Position numbers and translations under genes: made by a program. The notes under the pieces are model-generated. The model did no database searches, was not told the origin of the DNA, and saw only the letters and a list, made by a program, of their open reading frames with translations. From a virus, in IMG/VR virus record IMGVR_UViG_3300017530_000084, positions 1-43,391 of that record: 43,391 bases of DNA; one strand, given 5' to 3'. Below are positions 30,611 to 38,406 of this stretch, piece after piece (the stretch's first letter is position 1; the number at the start of each line of letters is the position of its first letter).

Positions 30611-32190
30611 TCATCCGTCTCGTCCGGGTGCGCCTTCTTGTACTCCTCCCACTTGGCGGCCATCTCGCGGATGGCGGCGACGTGGGCGGCTGAGTGAGGT
30701 TTCCCACTCGCCATGTGCTTCTTCATTAACGGTCCCATCTTACCCTTCATGAACTGCGGCCAAGTCATCCTTTTTCCATCGGCGTCCATGGACATGCCTC
30801 CACCTTCGATCTCCTCGAGTCCCTCCACGCCCTCGATCTCTTCTGGCGGCGTCCCGCCCTCACCTGCTTTCAGTTGTTCGATGAACTGCTCGCGCGGTTC
30901 GACCACGATCGTCATGTCGTCGAGGTTGATACCTTCCTTGCTGAACCGGCTTATGGCGACCTCCTCCGGCTCAACCACACCGTTCTGGATGTAGATCTGG
31001 TCCGTCTGAGCCACCTGCAGCCTGGTCTGGGCCTGCTCTGATTCTGATAATTGCCACAGCGGCGCGAATTCGAAGCCCATCTCGCCGGGCTCGAATCCCA
31101 AAGGGGCCAGCACTATGTTCAGGAACTGCTGGACCTTGGCCCGGAGGCGGTTCTTCTGAAAGGCGCTGATATTATCGTAGTGGATCCGCAAATCGTTGGC
31201 CCCGGCGTCGCCACCCAGGCGGCCGGTCTGGTTTTGGAAGAACCGCGACTTCGGGATCTCTACGGCGGCCGACACGATGTCGATGAAGATGTTGATCATG
31301 TCCGGCAGACCTGCGATCGGCGTGCCCATCTTGTCCAGCTCCTCGTCCGCGCCGTAGAGGGCGATGTTGTTCGTGGCCATCTCGGCGGCCATGATGCCGA
31401 TGCGCTTGAGAAGCATCGACTCGCCGTCGTCGTTTGAGAGTAACTGCGAGAGATTGGCGATCTTGAGCTTCTTGGTGATGAAGTCCTCGAGGATCGATGC
31501 ACCGGACTGGTTCGCCACCCCGAACTGACGCACGGCCTCGAAGATATTCTCGATCACCGACGCCCCGTAGGTGAAGTTGCGGATGCGCTCAAGCGGTGGC
31601 AGGTAGTTGCCGTCGAACCGGATCACCCGGGTCTCGTGGACGAGTTTGACGTCGGAGCCGTGAACAAACGGGCGATTGACCAGGTAGGTCTCGATCTCGC
31701 CGAAGTTCGGGTCCAGGGGATCAACGTAGAACGTCTGCGGGTAGGCCAGGAAGCGGTCGACGTTGGCGATGAACATGATCGGCTTCTTGATTACGGTCAG
31801 TGGTTCCTCAGGCGCTCCTCCGTCGAACACACCCAGGATCATCACATTGCCGCCGTACAGCCGACCCAGCATGATCGCCTCTTCAAACTTGCCCCGAGCA
31901 TCTATGCGCTCGAGCTCGTCCTCGGCCACCTGGATCCGCTTCGGGTCGTCGTGGCGGAGGATGATCCACTCGCGGGTGGCGTCCTTTGCCGGGATCTCGA
32001 CCGCGCGCCGGGTCACCCACTCGTAACGGTACATGGCCTCGAGAACGAAGCGATCAATCGTGAAGTCCCGAAAGAACGTCGTCCTGGCGATCGGATCTGT
32101 GATAGATCCGAACTTATTGGTCTGGTTGATCCACCTGTCGAGGCGGGCCTTCTTAGCATCTGCTGCAGGTACAATCTTGAGTTTTGTCAT
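30607..32190 (-). CDS. Portal protein (DUF1073-like)
   Basis: A 527-residue portal ring subunit, the DNA entry channel. Seen: 'WVTRRAVEIPAKDATREWI', 'EAIMLGRLYGGNVMILGVFDG', 'FYVDPLDPNFGEIETYLV', 'FFQNQTGRLGGDAGANDLRIHYDNISAFQKNRLRAKVQQFLNIVLAPLG', all conserved in DUF1073 portals. The extra C-terminal segment (about 470-527, 'MTWPQFMKGKMGPLMKKHMAS') is charged and may be a scaffold-binding tail. Start overlaps the large terminase stop. Confidence 0.88.
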   Translation of the reverse strand: MTKLKIVPAADAKKARLDRWINQTNKFGSITDPIARTTFFRDFTIDRFVLEAMYRYEWVTRRAVEIPAKDATREWIILRHDDPKRIQVAEDELERIDARGKFEEAIMLGRLYGGNVMILGVFDGGAPEEPLTVIKKPIMFIANVDRFLAYPQTFYVDPLDPNFGEIETYLVNRPFVHGSDVKLVHETRVIRFDGNYLPPLERIRNFTYGASVIENIFEAVRQFGVANQSGASILEDFITKKLKIANLSQLLSNDDGESMLLKRIGIMAAEMATNNIALYGADEELDKMGTPIAGLPDMINIFIDIVSAAVEIPKSRFFQNQTGRLGGDAGANDLRIHYDNISAFQKNRLRAKVQQFLNIVLAPLGFEPGEMGFEFAPLWQLSESEQAQTRLQVAQTDQIYIQNGVVEPEEVAISRFSKEGINLDDMTIVVEPREQFIEQLKAGEGGTPPEEIEGVEGLEEIEGGGMSMDADGKRMTWPQFMKGKMGPLMKKHMASGKPHSAAHVAAIREMAAKWEEYKKAHPDETDE

Positions 32191-33641
32191 CGTCTCATCG
32201 GTCCTCTCGCGGCCATCACCTCGGTCGTACTCGGCGGTTTCTCGGTCAGGGCCTTGAATGCCCCGGAACCTACGTCGATGGTGTCGTCGTGGACGCCCTC
32301 GGTCACGAAGGCGTCGTGTTCGTCGAAGAACGCCGCGTTCCAGCGGCCTCGTACGATCTTGATGTTACCTGCTTCGGCGTACGCCTGGTAGGGCTCCGCT
32401 CTCGTAAGTTTAGACCCTGTGACCTTGTCCGCCTTTACCATGTATCCGAGCAGCACGTTCTTGCGGTAGTGGTGGATGACGAACTTGCCCGATGACCCCG
32501 GCTCCTGCTCCAACCACACGATCACCCGCTTACCGTCGTCCTTGGCCTTCTCGGCGACCAGCCTCTCCACATGCCCGGACGACACGCGCACGCGCTGCAT
32601 GTCGACGAAGTATATCGTCTTGTGGAGGTCCATCACGGCTAACAGCCCGCAGGTCCAGTCCGGATCGTTCATCAGGTGCTCGGCCATCTTGGTCTTGGAG
32701 CGGGTCCGCTTGGCCTCGGTGCCGGCGAAGTCCCAGTAGCGTACGGCCTTGATCCAGTTCCTGGGGTAGTCATCCACGACCTCGAAGTCCGTGCGCTGGA
32801 ACAAGTTCCCGCCGGTGGCCCGGATCTTCCAGTTGCCGTGCAGCAGACGCTCCCGTGTCACCCGGTCCTGCGCGTAGAGGTTCGACTTGTAGGCGGGATC
32901 CTTCCGGATGAGTGCTGGGTTGTCGTCGAGCTTCCCCTCAATGAACGTGACGGACTTCGGTTCGATGTCGCCTGGGTACTTGTTGGCCCTCATCCAATCC
33001 ATGGCCTGAGACCGGGAGTCGAACCAGTGAATCTCCTCATCGATCTTGATCATCCACCGGATGACTCCGGATCGCTCCGGGATCGCGTAGCCGGTCTCCG
33101 GATCCCACCACCAGGATATGAACTCGGCCACCCAGGAGTCTGCGTCCGGGTTGCAGGTGGCCCGGACGTAGGGACGCACGCCGCAGGTGGAGCGGTTGCG
33201 CGTCAGCATGTAGAAGAACTGCTTCCGCGAGAACTGGGTCAGCTCGTCGTAGCCCAGCATGCAGATCTGGGCGCTATGCCAGTCGAAGACGGTGTCTTCT
33301 AACAGCAGGTGAGCAAACCCGATGCTTGAGCCGGCTGGGAAAGTGAAGTCGAGGTGCGGCTCACCACGGTGATGGGAGCCTAGCAGGGGGTACATACCTA
33401 TCGCCTCGTCCCAGATGCCGCCCTCGTTGGTGATCTGAGTCATCTTGCGTCGGAAGATGACGGCGCCGAACCCCTTCACGTTGATGTGGCGCAGGGGTTC
33501 AAGCAGGAGGCCTACGCTCTTTCCCGAGCCCGCGTGCCCGCCGTAGATGACGATGTCAGCCGGGCACGCCAGGAACGCCTCCTGTGGCCCCGGCTGCGGC
33601 CTCAACTCGATGGTCTCGATGATTTCGGCCGGCGCTGCCAT
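32187..33641 (-). CDS. terL: Terminase large subunit
   Basis: A 484-residue DNA-packaging motor with ATPase and nuclease. Walker A 'GGHAGSGKS' at residues 34-42, Walker B region 'QICMLGYDEL', C-motif-like 'RATCNPDADSWVAEFI', nuclease segments 'YWDFAGTEAKRT', 'VIVWLEQEPGSSGK' and 'FDEHDAFVTEGVHDDTIDVGSGAF', giving the acidic metal-binding residues. Follows the small subunit after 44 bases. Confidence 0.92.
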   Translation of the reverse strand: MAAPAEIIETIELRPQPGPQEAFLACPADIVIYGGHAGSGKSVGLLLEPLRHINVKGFGAVIFRRKMTQITNEGGIWDEAIGMYPLLGSHHRGEPHLDFTFPAGSSIGFAHLLLEDTVFDWHSAQICMLGYDELTQFSRKQFFYMLTRNRSTCGVRPYVRATCNPDADSWVAEFISWWWDPETGYAIPERSGVIRWMIKIDEEIHWFDSRSQAMDWMRANKYPGDIEPKSVTFIEGKLDDNPALIRKDPAYKSNLYAQDRVTRERLLHGNWKIRATGGNLFQRTDFEVVDDYPRNWIKAVRYWDFAGTEAKRTRSKTKMAEHLMNDPDWTCGLLAVMDLHKTIYFVDMQRVRVSSGHVERLVAEKAKDDGKRVIVWLEQEPGSSGKFVIHHYRKNVLLGYMVKADKVTGSKLTRAEPYQAYAEAGNIKIVRGRWNAAFFDEHDAFVTEGVHDDTIDVGSGAFKALTEKPPSTTEVMAARGPMRR

Positions 33642-33684: not shown

Positions 33685-34248
33685 CTAGTCTCGTTTGTTG
33701 TCGGGCAGGTAGATCATGACCTGCACCGGTTTCCCGTCCGCGCCCGTGATCTCGTGGCGCTCCCTCCGTCGCCATCGGTCCGAGCAGCGGCGCTCGAGGA
33801 ACGTCATCGCAGCCTGCCAGTTTTTGCCGAAGGCACTCTTAACCGTCAATACCGCGGCGATCTCGGCCCCCGCCTCCGCCTTTTTAATGGCCTCTAGGAA
33901 CTCTAAATAGATGAGTTCGGTCTTCTTGGGCTTCTCGGTTTTACCGGTCTCGGTCTCGATCTTTACGAGCCGCAGGAGCTCCTCCTCCCCGCGCTTGAGC
34001 CATGAGTAGAACGTGCTCTCGGGCAGTCCGACGTAGGCACACGCGGTGGTGTAGTAGTTCCCGACCGCGATAACGGTCACGAGGTCCTGCTGGAGCTCGG
34101 GGGTAAGGGTGGTCAGCCGGCCGGTGCGTTGTCTGGGGGGTTCCAGATTCTTTTCTGCGATCTTCAACCAGCCCGGTGCCCTCCTCCTGATCTTGCGTCC
34201 GGTCTTCTTGCTGATCTTTGGTTTTGTCCTTCGTCTCTTGATGGTCAT
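33685..34248 (-). CDS. terS: Terminase small subunit
   Basis: A 187-residue DNA-recognition subunit. After a very basic N terminus there is an HTH-like region ('VIAVGNYYTTACAYVGLPESTFYSWLKRGEEE') and a C-terminal oligomerisation part ending 'HEITGADGKPVQVMIYLPDN', a frequent tail in terminase small subunits. The ATG at 34248 follows AAGGAGACC, two bases after the previous TAA; an upstream ATG is inside the ATPase gene. Confidence 0.82.
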   Translation of the reverse strand: MTIKRRRTKPKISKKTGRKIRRRAPGWLKIAEKNLEPPRQRTGRLTTLTPELQQDLVTVIAVGNYYTTACAYVGLPESTFYSWLKRGEEELLRLVKIETETGKTEKPKKTELIYLEFLEAIKKAEAGAEIAAVLTVKSAFGKNWQAAMTFLERRCSDRWRRRERHEITGADGKPVQVMIYLPDNKRD

Positions 34249-34249
34249 G

Positions 34250-35386
34250 TTAGGTCTCCTTCGAAGGCAGAATACCAAACTTCATGGCTTTTTCACGCTC
34301 CAGCGACGGCCCTACGTACAGGAACCCCATCGTGAGTCGATTGCTCGAAGCATTGTTTTTAGTGAATGAAGGTATTGTTGAGGACTTACTTGGAGAAAGT
34401 ACGCGCGATGATTTGCGTATGATTTTCCACAGATGCGATCTAGCTCGATGACTGATCATCGCTGGGTGAGACGTGGTGGATATAAATCGTCGTCCTGTCG
34501 CCGCATAGAGCGCCGCGACGTACTCACTCAACGCATTACCGACTCCGACTCCCTGAAAATCAGGCAATGTGACGGTGCGGTGTTCCCGCCATGCTGGTTT
34601 TTTATTCGGGAATGACATGACAGCTGAAAAAGCGGCAGGTTCGCCGTCGATCGTAACCAGAAAACACCGGGCAGATATTGCAAGACTGGTATTCAGATAG
34701 TGATGTCGTCGAAAAACTCTCCATATGGCTTTATCAACTCGTTGAATGTGAAGCCTAATTTTTGGCCTTCCTCGAAGACGCCTCCATTTTAATGCGTGAA
34801 CTCCGGTGTCATAGACCCAATCCGGATCAAGCCATCGAGTGACATCGTGGTGACAAGTGACCGCGATTAGCTTCTTTTTCCCACGACGAATCGCCTTCGC
34901 CACTGCCGCGCTGCTTATCTTCGCCACGGTACGATCCACGACGCTTGTAAACTCATCTATGACGATGAGATCACCCGACTCACACATGGCGCGGGCGATA
35001 GTCGCGCGGAATTTTTCGCCGTTGCTTAATACCGAAAATGGTCGCAACCAGTTCGGAGGACTACCAAAGCCGACGCTTGACAACGCCATCACTATTTCCT
35101 TGATGCCGAGATTTGGCTGAAAAGCATCGATTATCGATTTGTTTGGCGGCCAATCAAACTCACTGATTAAATCATCGCCAAATAGTTCACGCGCGATCGA
35201 TGATTTCCCGCTGCCTGATGGCCCGACAATAAGACCTATGTTCCAGGGTTTTTCGTCCAGCGGAAGATCAACATCATAATTTTCCTCACTTGTTTTTTCC
35301 TTTTTCAAATCGAAAATACCGCGCAGTTGCGCGACTCGTGAGCTCTCTATGATCTTGATTTTATTTACGATATGAGCGCGTGGCAT
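34250..35386 (-). CDS. ABC-type ATPase fused to a GNAT acyltransferase domain
   Basis: A 378-residue fusion. Residues 1-205 are an ABC-type ATPase without membrane parts: Walker A 'GPSGSGKS' (55-62), signature 'LSNGEKFRA' (119-127), Walker B 'LIVIDE' (140-145), H-loop His179/180. Residues about 215-378 are GNAT-like, with acyl-CoA loop 'FQGVGVGNAL' (277-286) after 'HRTVTLPD', then 'STTSHPAMISHR'. This matches the family annotated as ABC ATPase fused to a predicted acetyltransferase (COG2401). It is AT-richer than the terminase genes. With the ParB-fold gene upstream it may modify DNA bases or load on DNA; activity is unknown. Confidence 0.78.
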   Translation of the reverse strand: MPRAHIVNKIKIIESSRVAQLRGIFDLKKEKTSEENYDVDLPLDEKPWNIGLIVGPSGSGKSSIARELFGDDLISEFDWPPNKSIIDAFQPNLGIKEIVMALSSVGFGSPPNWLRPFSVLSNGEKFRATIARAMCESGDLIVIDEFTSVVDRTVAKISSAAVAKAIRRGKKKLIAVTCHHDVTRWLDPDWVYDTGVHALKWRRLRGRPKIRLHIQRVDKAIWRVFRRHHYLNTSLAISARCFLVTIDGEPAAFSAVMSFPNKKPAWREHRTVTLPDFQGVGVGNALSEYVAALYAATGRRFISTTSHPAMISHRARSHLWKIIRKSSRVLSPSKSSTIPSFTKNNASSNRLTMGFLYVGPSLEREKAMKFGILPSKET

Positions 35387-35407
35387 TCGATCCCTTCCTT
35401 GTTTAGC

Positions 35408-35728
35408 TTATCCAAGCGTTGCCAACATCTGGTTCTCTTCCCCAACACTTAGATCCACGTATATGACTGGGATCTTGTCCTCGCCGCGCTCGATCGCGAG
35501 GGCCACGCGGAGGTGGCCGTCGATGATCAGGCCGGTGGTGCGGTTGACGATGATCTGCTGGACCCAGCCAACCTTGTCGAGCACAGTCGTCAGAGCCTCG
35601 CGCTGGTACTTTGGATGAACCCGCCAGTTTCGAGGATTAGCAACCAGCTTCTCGGGGTCCACCTGGCGGGTGCTGACGATCCGGTTCCGCCAGCCTTTTT
35701 TGCTCTTCTTCGGTCTCTTAGCCACCAT
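35408..35728 (-). CDS. ParB/Srx-fold nuclease-like protein, short
   Basis: A 106-residue ParB N-terminal-domain protein. Seen: 'DPEKLVANPRNWRVHPKYQREALTTVLDKVGWVQQIIVNRTTGLIIDGHLRVALAIERGEDKIPVIYVDLS', including the 'IDGHLR' box. In many relatives the protein goes on past 'LATLDP' into another domain; here it stops at 'MLATLG'. The ATG at 35728 overlaps the previous gene by 11 bases. The partner ATPase-GNAT gene begins 22 bases later. It could bind CTP/ATP or nick DNA, but no catalytic claim can be made. Confidence 0.78.
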   Translation of the reverse strand: MVAKRPKKSKKGWRNRIVSTRQVDPEKLVANPRNWRVHPKYQREALTTVLDKVGWVQQIIVNRTTGLIIDGHLRVALAIERGEDKIPVIYVDLSVGEENQMLATLG

Positions 35729-35909
35729 CACCCACCCCAGCGGCCCGCTTCTCGCGCTGAGTCGGCACGTACCCCAGCGGCAGGCCGCAGGTTGGGCAGA
35801 AATTGAACGTCTGCGTCGGTCGCAGTACGCTGCTCTGGAGGACGATGATGACGGGTCCGGAGCCACCGGACACGTGAGCGTAGCCGACGATGTGGTTGCA
35901 CATGATCAT
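35718..35909 (-). CDS. Small zinc-finger-like protein
   Basis: A 63-residue protein with a 'FCPTCGLPLGY' zinc-ribbon half at residues 37-47 and an N-terminal beta segment ('PVIIVLQSSVLRPTQTFN') that carries Cys4. The start overlaps the previous stop (ATGA) and the end overlaps the ParB-fold start, so it is cotranslated with the possible modification module. A similar CPxCG pattern occurs in many small phage proteins. No specific role. Confidence 0.6.
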   Translation of the reverse strand: MIMCNHIVGYAHVSGGSGPVIIVLQSSVLRPTQTFNFCPTCGLPLGYVPTQREKRAAGVGDGG

Positions 35910-36079
35910 GTTTTGGTCTCCTGGTCCTGATCGTTGTCCGAGAACTTGGCCAGCACTTCGACCGGCATGTTCGCTGACAGGTCGACGTAGGTGGCCAGCA
36001 CCTTCTCCTCGCCGTGATTCTCGGTCTTCGGGTTGACGTTGGTCATGTACATCATTGTTCTGCTGATCTCTAGATTCAT
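35906..36079 (-). CDS. Small acidic protein
   Basis: A 57-residue acidic protein ('TENHGEEKVLATYVDLSANMPVEVL', 'FSDNDQDQETKT'). The ATG at 36079 follows CGAGGAG; the longer upstream frame covers a repeat-like TGATGGTT stretch and is less likely. Nothing recognisable. Confidence 0.5.
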   Translation of the reverse strand: MNLEISRTMMYMTNVNPKTENHGEEKVLATYVDLSANMPVEVLAKFSDNDQDQETKT

Positions 36080-36148
36080 GGTTTGTTCTCCTCGGTCGTT
36101 GGTTGATGGTTGATGGTTCAGGTACATCGTACCGGTATCATGTCCTTG

Positions 36149-37028: not shown

Positions 37029-37580
37029 TTATGCCCCCACGCTGGACCGTCTCGCGGCGGTCGCCAGGAGCTGTTCTCGCTGCCATAAGAGCCTACCGTA
37101 TTCGGCGATCAGCAGGGCCTCGGCCCGGTTGTGGTGCCTCTTGGCGTCGAGGTTTATGGTCGGCCACATCTGCCTCGCGACCGTGATCGAGTAGTCCTTG
37201 TCCTTGGTCAGGCCGAACCCGCGCTTCCATTCGCCGGGCCTGACCGTCGTCACGTCGATCCCGATCATCTCGAGCATGGCCAGCAGACCCCCGTAGGTCT
37301 GGAACAGCGAGCACGTACCCATCATGTTCCCCCCCGGCACCGAGAACGGCGCCTCGATGCAGGCACGCCACTCGTGGTTCAGGTAATTCACGAGCCGGTC
37401 CGTCAGTTGGTCGACCGTGGGCCTGACATCGAACTCCCTCTTGATGGTGGTGCTCGTGAGAGTCCTACGGCGGGTGATGACATCTATCACCGCGATCGCG
37501 CGGCTGTCCTGGTCGATGACGCCGACCGCGCCGGTCAGTCCAGGGTCCACCCCAATGAAGATGGTCAGGTCAGTGGGCAT
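37029..37580 (-). CDS. RuvC-like Holliday junction resolvase
   Basis: A 183-residue resolvase that would cut branched DNA before packaging. RNase-H-fold markers: 'IGVDPGLTGAVGVID' with Asp12, 'ACIEAPFS' with Glu76, 'GGLLAMLEMIGIDVTTVRPGEWKRGFGL', and C-terminal 'HHNRAEALLIAEYG' with Glu154 where cellular RuvC has Asp. That replacement is common in phage forms. Overlaps the upstream gene by 11 bases. Confidence 0.83.
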   Translation of the reverse strand: MPTDLTIFIGVDPGLTGAVGVIDQDSRAIAVIDVITRRRTLTSTTIKREFDVRPTVDQLTDRLVNYLNHEWRACIEAPFSVPGGNMMGTCSLFQTYGGLLAMLEMIGIDVTTVRPGEWKRGFGLTKDKDYSITVARQMWPTINLDAKRHHNRAEALLIAEYGRLLWQREQLLATAARRSSVGA

Positions 37581-38406
37581 ATCTAAGATCCTGTACGAGA
37601 GCGCGGACCCTCTGGACCCACCTCAGCCTGTAGTCGCTGTCGGGCGATATCTGCCCATTTGCGATGAGCTGCATCATCAGTTGCTGCACGGTGGTGGCCT
37701 GGCCGTCGTTGATGCCGTTGAACTGGACCCTGCTATCGATGGGGCACAGAAATCTGATGCTCTCTAATGGTTCTTGACACGAGAGGATGGGCGTCATCGG
37801 GTCCACCGCCTGGACTACGATCTCATACTCGGCGTGCGGGTAGTCCTTCTTGACCGGCTCGGCACCGTCGACGTTCCGCAGGTGGACGAGCGAGCATACC
37901 CACTGTGTCCACATCGTGTGGAACTGGTTGGAGAGGATCAGGTAGACGCGCAGCAATGCGGGCCGTATCTCACCGTGCATCTTAAGTTCGTATATATGGG
38001 CCGCGAGATCGTGGCCGGGGTCGGCCTGGAGTTCAGGCTCGCCGAACGCGCTGAGGTTGAGCGGACGCGCCGTCATGGCCTGCCTCGTGAGTTCGGAGGC
38101 AGCCCAGGCTGATAAGAAGTTCAGGGACAGGATGGCCAGCCCGTTGATCGGTGCGAAGCTTGGGTTTAACCCGAGCACATCGCGGATCTCTGTGCTGAGA
38201 TCGGTGAACCGGAGGATGTATAAGATCTCCTTGTGGGTGACGCGGCCAGTGTATTCCCCGGTCTTCGGGTTCCACTCCCTGAGTTTAAGCACGTCCCCGG
38301 TTTTGTAGCCGCGATCGTCCCTGCGTATCTCGATCGACTTTCGGCCGCTATCGATATCGTCGTAGAACTCGGGCCAGGTCTTGAGGTCGTGCACCGTGAT
38401 GGTCAT
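37570..38406 (-). CDS. DUF3850 (ASCH-like) domain protein with extra C terminus
   Basis: A 278-residue protein. The first ~75 residues are a DUF3850/ASCH-like domain ('VHDLKTWPEFYDDIDSGRKSIEIRRDDRGYKTGDVLKLREWNPKTGEYTGR'), a fold thought to bind RNA or modified nucleotides. The remaining 200 residues are helical and unlike other DUF3850 proteins known to me, which are usually about 80-100 aa. It may be a fusion. GGAGAACC precedes the ATG. Confidence 0.68.
   Translation of the reverse strand: MTITVHDLKTWPEFYDDIDSGRKSIEIRRDDRGYKTGDVLKLREWNPKTGEYTGRVTHKEILYILRFTDLSTEIRDVLGLNPSFAPINGLAILSLNFLSAWAASELTRQAMTARPLNLSAFGEPELQADPGHDLAAHIYELKMHGEIRPALLRVYLILSNQFHTMWTQWVCSLVHLRNVDGAEPVKKDYPHAEYEIVVQAVDPMTPILSCQEPLESIRFLCPIDSRVQFNGINDGQATTVQQLMMQLIANGQISPDSDYRLRWVQRVRALVQDLRYAH

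Follow-up and report, generated by a model that had tools for sequence, protein, structure and literature searches.

Which reaction is encoded by three short minus-strand genes that a virus carries directly in front of its terminase genes, and how did they come to stand there? The window analysed here is the whole of a 43,391-nt stretch of viral DNA (IMG/VR record IMGVR_UViG_3300017530_000084). Its first-pass annotation took a CPxCG protein, a short ParB-fold protein and an ABC ATPase fused to a GNAT domain for a separately acquired trio that might add an acyl-type group to DNA or protein, or guide terminase. We favour, with a probability of about two in three, the reading that the 378-aa fusion protein is a phage DNA-base acyltransferase, linked to ParB, that has displaced a ParB-linked methylase. 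This reading builds on the observed domain architecture, intact motifs, methylase replacement, exchange with Mom and correlation of adaptor with enzyme; the substrate, the chemistry and the activity of the window copy are inferred from these.

The trio and its ABC-GNAT protein

All three ORFs are found on the minus strand, directly before the genes of the small (TerS) and large (TerL) terminase subunits. The CPxCG ORF (35718..35909, an ORF call) encodes 63 amino acids and overlaps by 11 nt the start of the ParB-fold gene (35408..35728, 106 amino acids from the ATG, recognized by its ORF and PHROG matches). A gap of 21 nt separates the latter from the ABC-GNAT gene (34250..35386), with the sequence GGAAGGGA upstream of the ABC-GNAT ATG. 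The ABC-GNAT stop in turn lies 1 nt from the ATG of TerS (33685..34248, minus strand, PHROG 4102), which is followed by TerL (32187..33641, minus strand). Because of these overlaps and short gaps, the co-translation of the three genes that had been asserted for this locus is plausible. The CPxCG protein, although present as described, has no homologue beside ParB in the collinear relative L021 discussed below and is possibly unrelated to the module.

The ABC part of the fusion protein spans residues 1-203 (34778-35386, minus strand) and the GNAT part residues 204-378 (34250-34777, minus strand). Motif inspection and homologue alignment place, on the same strand, the Walker A motif GPSGSGKS at residues 55-62 (35201..35224), the ABC signature LSNGE at residues 120-124 (35015..35029), and Walker B with the catalytic glutamate, DLIVIDE, at residues 139-145 (34952..34972); the H-loop reads CHHD. 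Among 141 non-redundant homologues these four elements are near-invariant, and all are intact in the window. The same holds for H229, Y230, R270, P275, Q278, G279, and W320 of the GNAT part, and the window protein shows no departure at any position conserved in at least 90% of these homologues. H229 and Y230 belong to an HHYL motif (residues 228-231, 34694..34705, minus strand), whose residues are the candidate active site, and Q278 opens the acyl-CoA binding motif A, QGVGVG (residues 278-283, 34538..34555, minus strand). Motifs, Pfam (ABC_tran and Acetyltransf_1, both above cut-offs) and a full-length match to the PHROG 11143 profile (5.5e-113, residues 6-363) thus agree on the fusion of an ABC ATPase with a GNAT domain that the first-pass annotation had recognized. 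AlphaFold2 models the whole protein with a mean pLDDT of 92.8 and the GNAT part, modelled separately, with 90.5. PADLOC matches to mad3 and mad8 are limited to parts of the ABC domain and are not taken as membership. A programmed frameshift between the two domains was considered and rejected: in Streptococcus, Lactococcus, and Oenococcus phages the split protein is encoded by two ORFs, with an ATGA overlap where so annotated, and therefore reflects ordinary gene fission.

A structure search aimed at the substrate of the GNAT part returns generic GNAT matches only, with no pointer to a substrate. Among solved structures, its fold comes nearest to those of RimI, Naa50, and further acetyltransferases that act on proteins or small molecules; the tRNA cytidine acetyltransferase TmcA (2zpa) appears at ranks 11 and 17, with scores no better than those of unrelated GNATs. 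Mom (PF25680) gives no Pfam match to the window proteins at E<=1, and hhalign profile-profile comparison of the GNAT part with Mom yields a probability of 0.1-0.4% in two tests, on which membership in the Mom family was rejected.

ParB partners and adaptor tails in related loci

The neighbourhood search that the first-pass annotation had proposed finds ParB beside ABC-GNAT in 122 of 131 non-redundant loci, those whose upstream sequence was long enough. Since the 80 viral and 80 genome loci were chosen on similarity to ABC-GNAT alone, the association is not a search effect. Homologues lacking a ParB neighbour, which had been named in advance as evidence against the proposed role, do occur, in nine of the 131 loci only, and several of these carry a stand-alone or displaced tail domain. 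The best 80 relatives on genome contigs (L103-L182) come mostly from Planctomycetota and Nonomuraea. In Tenacibaculum phage pT24, an in-frame stop lies inside the GNAT domain of the ABC-GNAT gene (L007:4001-5173); the passage on this family in a jumbo-phage review names pT24 as the example, and the accession given there belongs to an Aeromonas phage AsFcp_2 protein.

The usual ParB partner comprises about 180 amino acids and ends in a segment of about 35 residues with the consensus FEVLVECEDEAEQVELLERLTAEGLKCRALIS, the end of which runs into the start of ABC-GNAT, usually over 22 nt. This mini-domain (PHROG 28816), which we term the adaptor, is present in 153 of 154 ParBs beside ABC-GNAT, none of which has a tail CxxC. 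Conversely, 73 Mom loci include upstream sequence and 69 of them have ParB nearby; all 69 of these ParBs carry a CxxC within their last 60 residues and none the mini-domain. Related sequences are included in these counts, the Mom loci form a single clade, and most of the sequences behind the mini-domain profile are these very ParB tails, so that the counts represent a clean contrast of two sets rather than 223 independent events. Mu-like phages (L010, L012), which are among the exceptions without a ParB neighbour, encode the adaptor as an ORF of its own immediately ahead of ABC-GNAT; it matches the profile though it lies outside the set from which the profile was built. The independent PHROG 28816 profile recovers both ORFs (1.5e-21 and 4.1e-10) as well as the tails of the L005 and L066 ParBs (2.8e-5 and 3.1e-4). 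The adaptor ORF and ABC-GNAT follow the tail-fibre genes in these phages, as Com-Mom follows the tail-fibre genes and gin in Mu. Homology of the small ORF to Com is rejected, as it matches the ParB tail profile PHROG 28816 and is not a zinc finger.

Among 16 phage-record and early loci examined, ParB is absent from six, jumbo phages among them, and four of the six also lack the adaptor. The profile detects no adaptor in the jumbo-phage members, and the adaptor may therefore be dispensable in some members. An adjacent ParB with adaptor thus appears, by these comparisons, to be a usual and not a defining feature of the PHROG 11143 family. One clade displays a further neighbour: a PurN-type formyltransferase lies close downstream of ABC-GNAT (L012:5110-5727, L010:5128-5601, L015:1826-2473) in Mu-like and Gordonia phages, the clade including Gordonia phages such as NHagos, Porphyromonas phages, Pseudomonas phage Komp_PAO1_1, and two gut phage records. 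This gene order suggests a two-step modification; more speculatively, if the GNAT domain adds an aminoacyl group, the PurN-like enzyme could formylate its free amine.

Exchange of enzymes at the ParB slot

Two phages isolated on the same host, Arthrobacter globiformis B-2979, illustrate an exchange with Mom. EastWest has the order gp73, gp74 (ParB), gp75 (ABC-GNAT), (gp76, gp77), HTH, sliding clamp; Sicarius2 has gp70, gp71 (ParB), gp72 (Mom, PF25680 at 6.6e-59), (gp73), HTH, sliding clamp. The shared genes are 67%, 60% (the ParB core), 71%, and 53% identical. While the ParB cores align, the tails do not: that of EastWest is the adaptor mini-domain, that of Sicarius2 a zinc-ribbon-like tail with a CPNCG motif. 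ABC-GNAT and Mom have thus been exchanged in one ParB slot, which supports the notion that ABC-GNAT works like Mom, not that it belongs to the Mom family.

The window itself points to an exchange with a methylase. The IMG/VR relative L021 is collinear with it: the ORFs at 40.3-35.9 kb, TerS (66% identical), and TerL (84% identical over 201 aa) all have homologues there in the same order. The small conserved ORF upstream of the trio (35906..36127, minus strand), 58% identical to L021 5041-5559 over 52 aa, serves as an anchor for the synteny. Between the homologue of this ORF and TerS, L021 carries a single gene for a 467-aa ParB-methylase (N6_N4_Mtase, 3e-28), the ParB half of which shares 69% identity with the window ParB across 101 aa. 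The window lacks the methylase half and has a low-GC ABC-GNAT gene in that position. We conclude from this synteny that a foreign ABC-GNAT replaced the methylase half of a resident ParB-methylase upstream of terminase. A second methylase-like gene, C5-cytosine-type by sequence motifs only, lies between TerS and TerL in L021 (L021:9227-10450) and is absent from the window. The window also encodes a DUF3850/ASCH-like protein (37570-38406, minus strand; PF12961, 3.6e-21) that is conserved in L021, where the methylase takes the place of ABC-GNAT; ASCH domains have reportedly been proposed as readers of modified bases.

The window ParB matches PHROG 620 (1.4e-13) and, more strongly, the ParB-methylase family PHROG 498 (8.5e-16), whereas Pfam returns no match of any kind, including none to ParB_N at E<=1. 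It keeps the GHLR box with its arginine; the nucleotide used by this ParB/Srx (ParB-CTPase) fold is not predictable from sequence (PMC12704722). Its nearest relatives are the ParB-methylases of L021 and of Stenotrophomonas phages, and by these similarities it is the N-terminal half of a former ParB-methylase resident in the lineage. That it stops where relatives continue had been noted correctly and is explained by loss of the methylase half. Composition agrees with two separate histories. The ABC-GNAT gene has a GC content of 0.487 and a GC3 of 0.485, in comparison with a GC3 of 0.76-0.85 in the flanks (TerS 0.803, TerL 0.849), whereas the ParB gene (GC 0.583, GC3 0.757) and the CPxCG ORF (GC 0.646) resemble the flanks. 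The earlier claim that the trio is low in GC and separately acquired therefore holds for the ABC-GNAT gene and fails for the other two, and acquisition of the trio as one unit is ruled out.

The junction has left a trace. A 16-aa segment, LDKLNKEGIECHALIS, followed by a stop (35365..35415, minus strand) matches the adaptor profile in a frame other than that of ParB and overlaps the ABC-GNAT start by 22 nt, as in relatives. It is the sole significant place in the window for this profile, with an E-value of 5e-4 over all loci and a score of 20.6 bits, compared with 11.7 bits for the best of 60 shuffled windows. The window therefore contains the very end of a donor ParB gene together with ABC-GNAT, joined to the resident ParB; the remnant marks a recombination junction that fell inside the donor adaptor. 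The frame offset, one base at 35415-35448, depends on one position of one metagenomic contig. A search of IMG/VR for another copy of the junction found none. A possible precursor is provided by L165, in which a ParB-methylase, a ParB with adaptor, and ABC-GNAT form a tandem operon (L165:412-3426), so that each of the two modification enzymes has a ParB to itself; a deletion in such an operon could yield the window arrangement.

A third type of enzyme shares this slot. In Methanoculleus virus L4768, whose TerL is 51% identical to that of the window, the slot before terminase holds a fusion of ParB with a PAPS-reductase domain; such a fusion with a DndC-like PP-loop domain is found at L300:1242-2486, in an archaeal virus, directly before terminase. 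PAPS-reductase-like (PP-loop) enzymes such as DndC are known to modify DNA (PMC10853773). The nearest phage-record matches of the window TerL are the Methanoculleus viruses L4768 and Blf4 (51%), and the host of the window virus could therefore be a methanogenic archaeon.

Proposed function and known systems

The following sequence of events is proposed. ParB would bind or track DNA, and the adaptor mini-domain would bring ABC-GNAT to it. The ABC ATPase might then spend ATP to engage, distort, open, or position the DNA, upon which the GNAT domain, equipped with a CoA motif, would move an acyl group from acyl-CoA onto the amino group of a base. The ParB core would serve as a common platform that accommodates Mom via a CxxC zinc-ribbon-like tail, and methylases and PAPS-reductase-like domains via direct fusion. 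In the window lineage, a foreign ABC-GNAT replaced the methylase half, with the junction inside the donor adaptor leaving a truncated ParB and the 16-aa remnant; the lack of an intact adaptor may leave the window copy impaired or inactive. Like that of Mom, the modification presumably protects the DNA of the phage against nucleases of the host late in infection, and a late-operon position near terminase would fit modification shortly ahead of packaging. The DNA modification suggested by the first-pass annotation is thus supported by the slot swaps with methylase and Mom and by the partner-specific ParB tails, the acyl chemistry being a prediction. The fullest version, in which interchangeable, adaptor-coded enzymes share a ParB platform, ABC-GNAT makes a novel base modification that in one clade is probably aminoacyl and then formylated, and the window records a recent swap, is offered tentatively, at slightly less than even odds.

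Several observations speak against DNA acylation: the GNAT fold resembles RimI-type protein acetyltransferases as well as tRNA cytidine acetyltransferase, profile similarity to Mom is lacking, some loci have no ParB, and the window has no intact adaptor. Instead of modifying DNA, the GNAT domain might acetylate a protein target, be it host RNA polymerase, a nucleoid protein or a defence protein, and the ABC part and ParB would then act as localisation factors. The fold neighbours named above would suit such an activity, and there are phage GNATs that target RNA polymerase (Rac, as cited in the relevant passage of PMC7824862); this explanation is nonetheless unlikely, as it leaves the swaps with methylase and Mom in the same slots and the common ParB platform unexplained. 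TmcA among the structural matches might be taken to indicate acetylation of RNA, e.g., tRNA, yet unrelated GNATs score at least as well as TmcA, the ATPase in the window is of the ABC type and not the helicase-type module of TmcA, and the swaps involve DNA modifiers, which makes an RNA substrate highly improbable.

A different doubt concerns the window copy: even if the family modifies DNA, this copy could be a recent, functionless recombination product nearing loss. Its adaptor is an out-of-frame remnant where 153 of 154 relatives have it intact, and the composition of its ABC-GNAT gene has not ameliorated. The reading frame is intact, however, conserved positions are kept, the fold is predicted with high confidence, jumbo-phage members without detectable adaptor suggest that the adaptor may be dispensable, and there is no second copy of the junction to date the event; loss of function of the window copy is thus considered fairly unlikely. 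The other suggestion of the first-pass annotation, that the module guides terminase through ParB-like DNA loading, draws on about 40 of 53 viral loci in which the largest downstream ORF encodes terminase or a portal protein. In EastWest, where it stands beside the sliding clamp, and in Mu-like phages, where it follows the tail fibres, the same pairing is found away from terminase, so that proximity to terminase looks like late-gene placement; moreover, ParB-methylase and ParB-PAPS-reductase genes share the place before terminase, a position therefore typical of DNA-modification genes generally. A direct packaging role is not supported and has very little probability.

If the DNA-base acyltransferase reading is followed, the matched phage pairs, two phages of which grow on one host strain, make the effects of Mom and ABC-GNAT comparable in virion DNA, and the swaps render an old prediction directly testable. 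Partner-specific tails also suggest a role for many orphan phage ParB-domain proteins, the tail providing a rule by which the enzyme served by any one ParB can be predicted.

Acyl modification of a DNA base by a GNAT protein with an ABC ATPase was predicted by Iyer et al. in 2013, as cited in the passage of PMC7824862 that gives QAX98348.1 as example. This Aeromonas phage AsFcp_2 protein (L014) is about 36% identical over its full length to the window ABC-GNAT, and the idea of DNA acylation is therefore, as far as that passage goes, a published prediction for the PHROG 11143 family; in the portions of the literature covered, no test of it was found. What is new here are the slot swaps and the adaptor-tail evidence for the ABC-GNAT family. 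COG2401 has the same two domains, ABC ATPase and acetyltransferase, by description alone, and the literature search found no paper naming it. TmcA likewise couples an ATPase to a GNAT domain that acylates a nucleobase; its ATPase is of the RNA-helicase type, its domain order differs, and it acts on RNA. Com-Mom of Mu and the Mom family (PF25680) are alike in combining a GNAT-fold enzyme with a small partner, in a late or late-end position, and in the same ParB slot; in contrast, Mom lacks an ABC ATPase, and the ParB beside it carries the CxxC zinc-ribbon-like tail rather than the PHROG 28816 mini-domain. With phage ParB-methylase fusions (PHROG 498; PMC12704722), the window shares ParB as their N-terminal domain, a separate ABC-GNAT gene standing where they have the methylase half. 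The members of PHROG 11143 are homologous over the full length and have domain order and motifs like those of the window protein; they differ in the partner, which in the window is an adjacent ParB of methylase origin that retains the adaptor only as an out-of-frame remnant.
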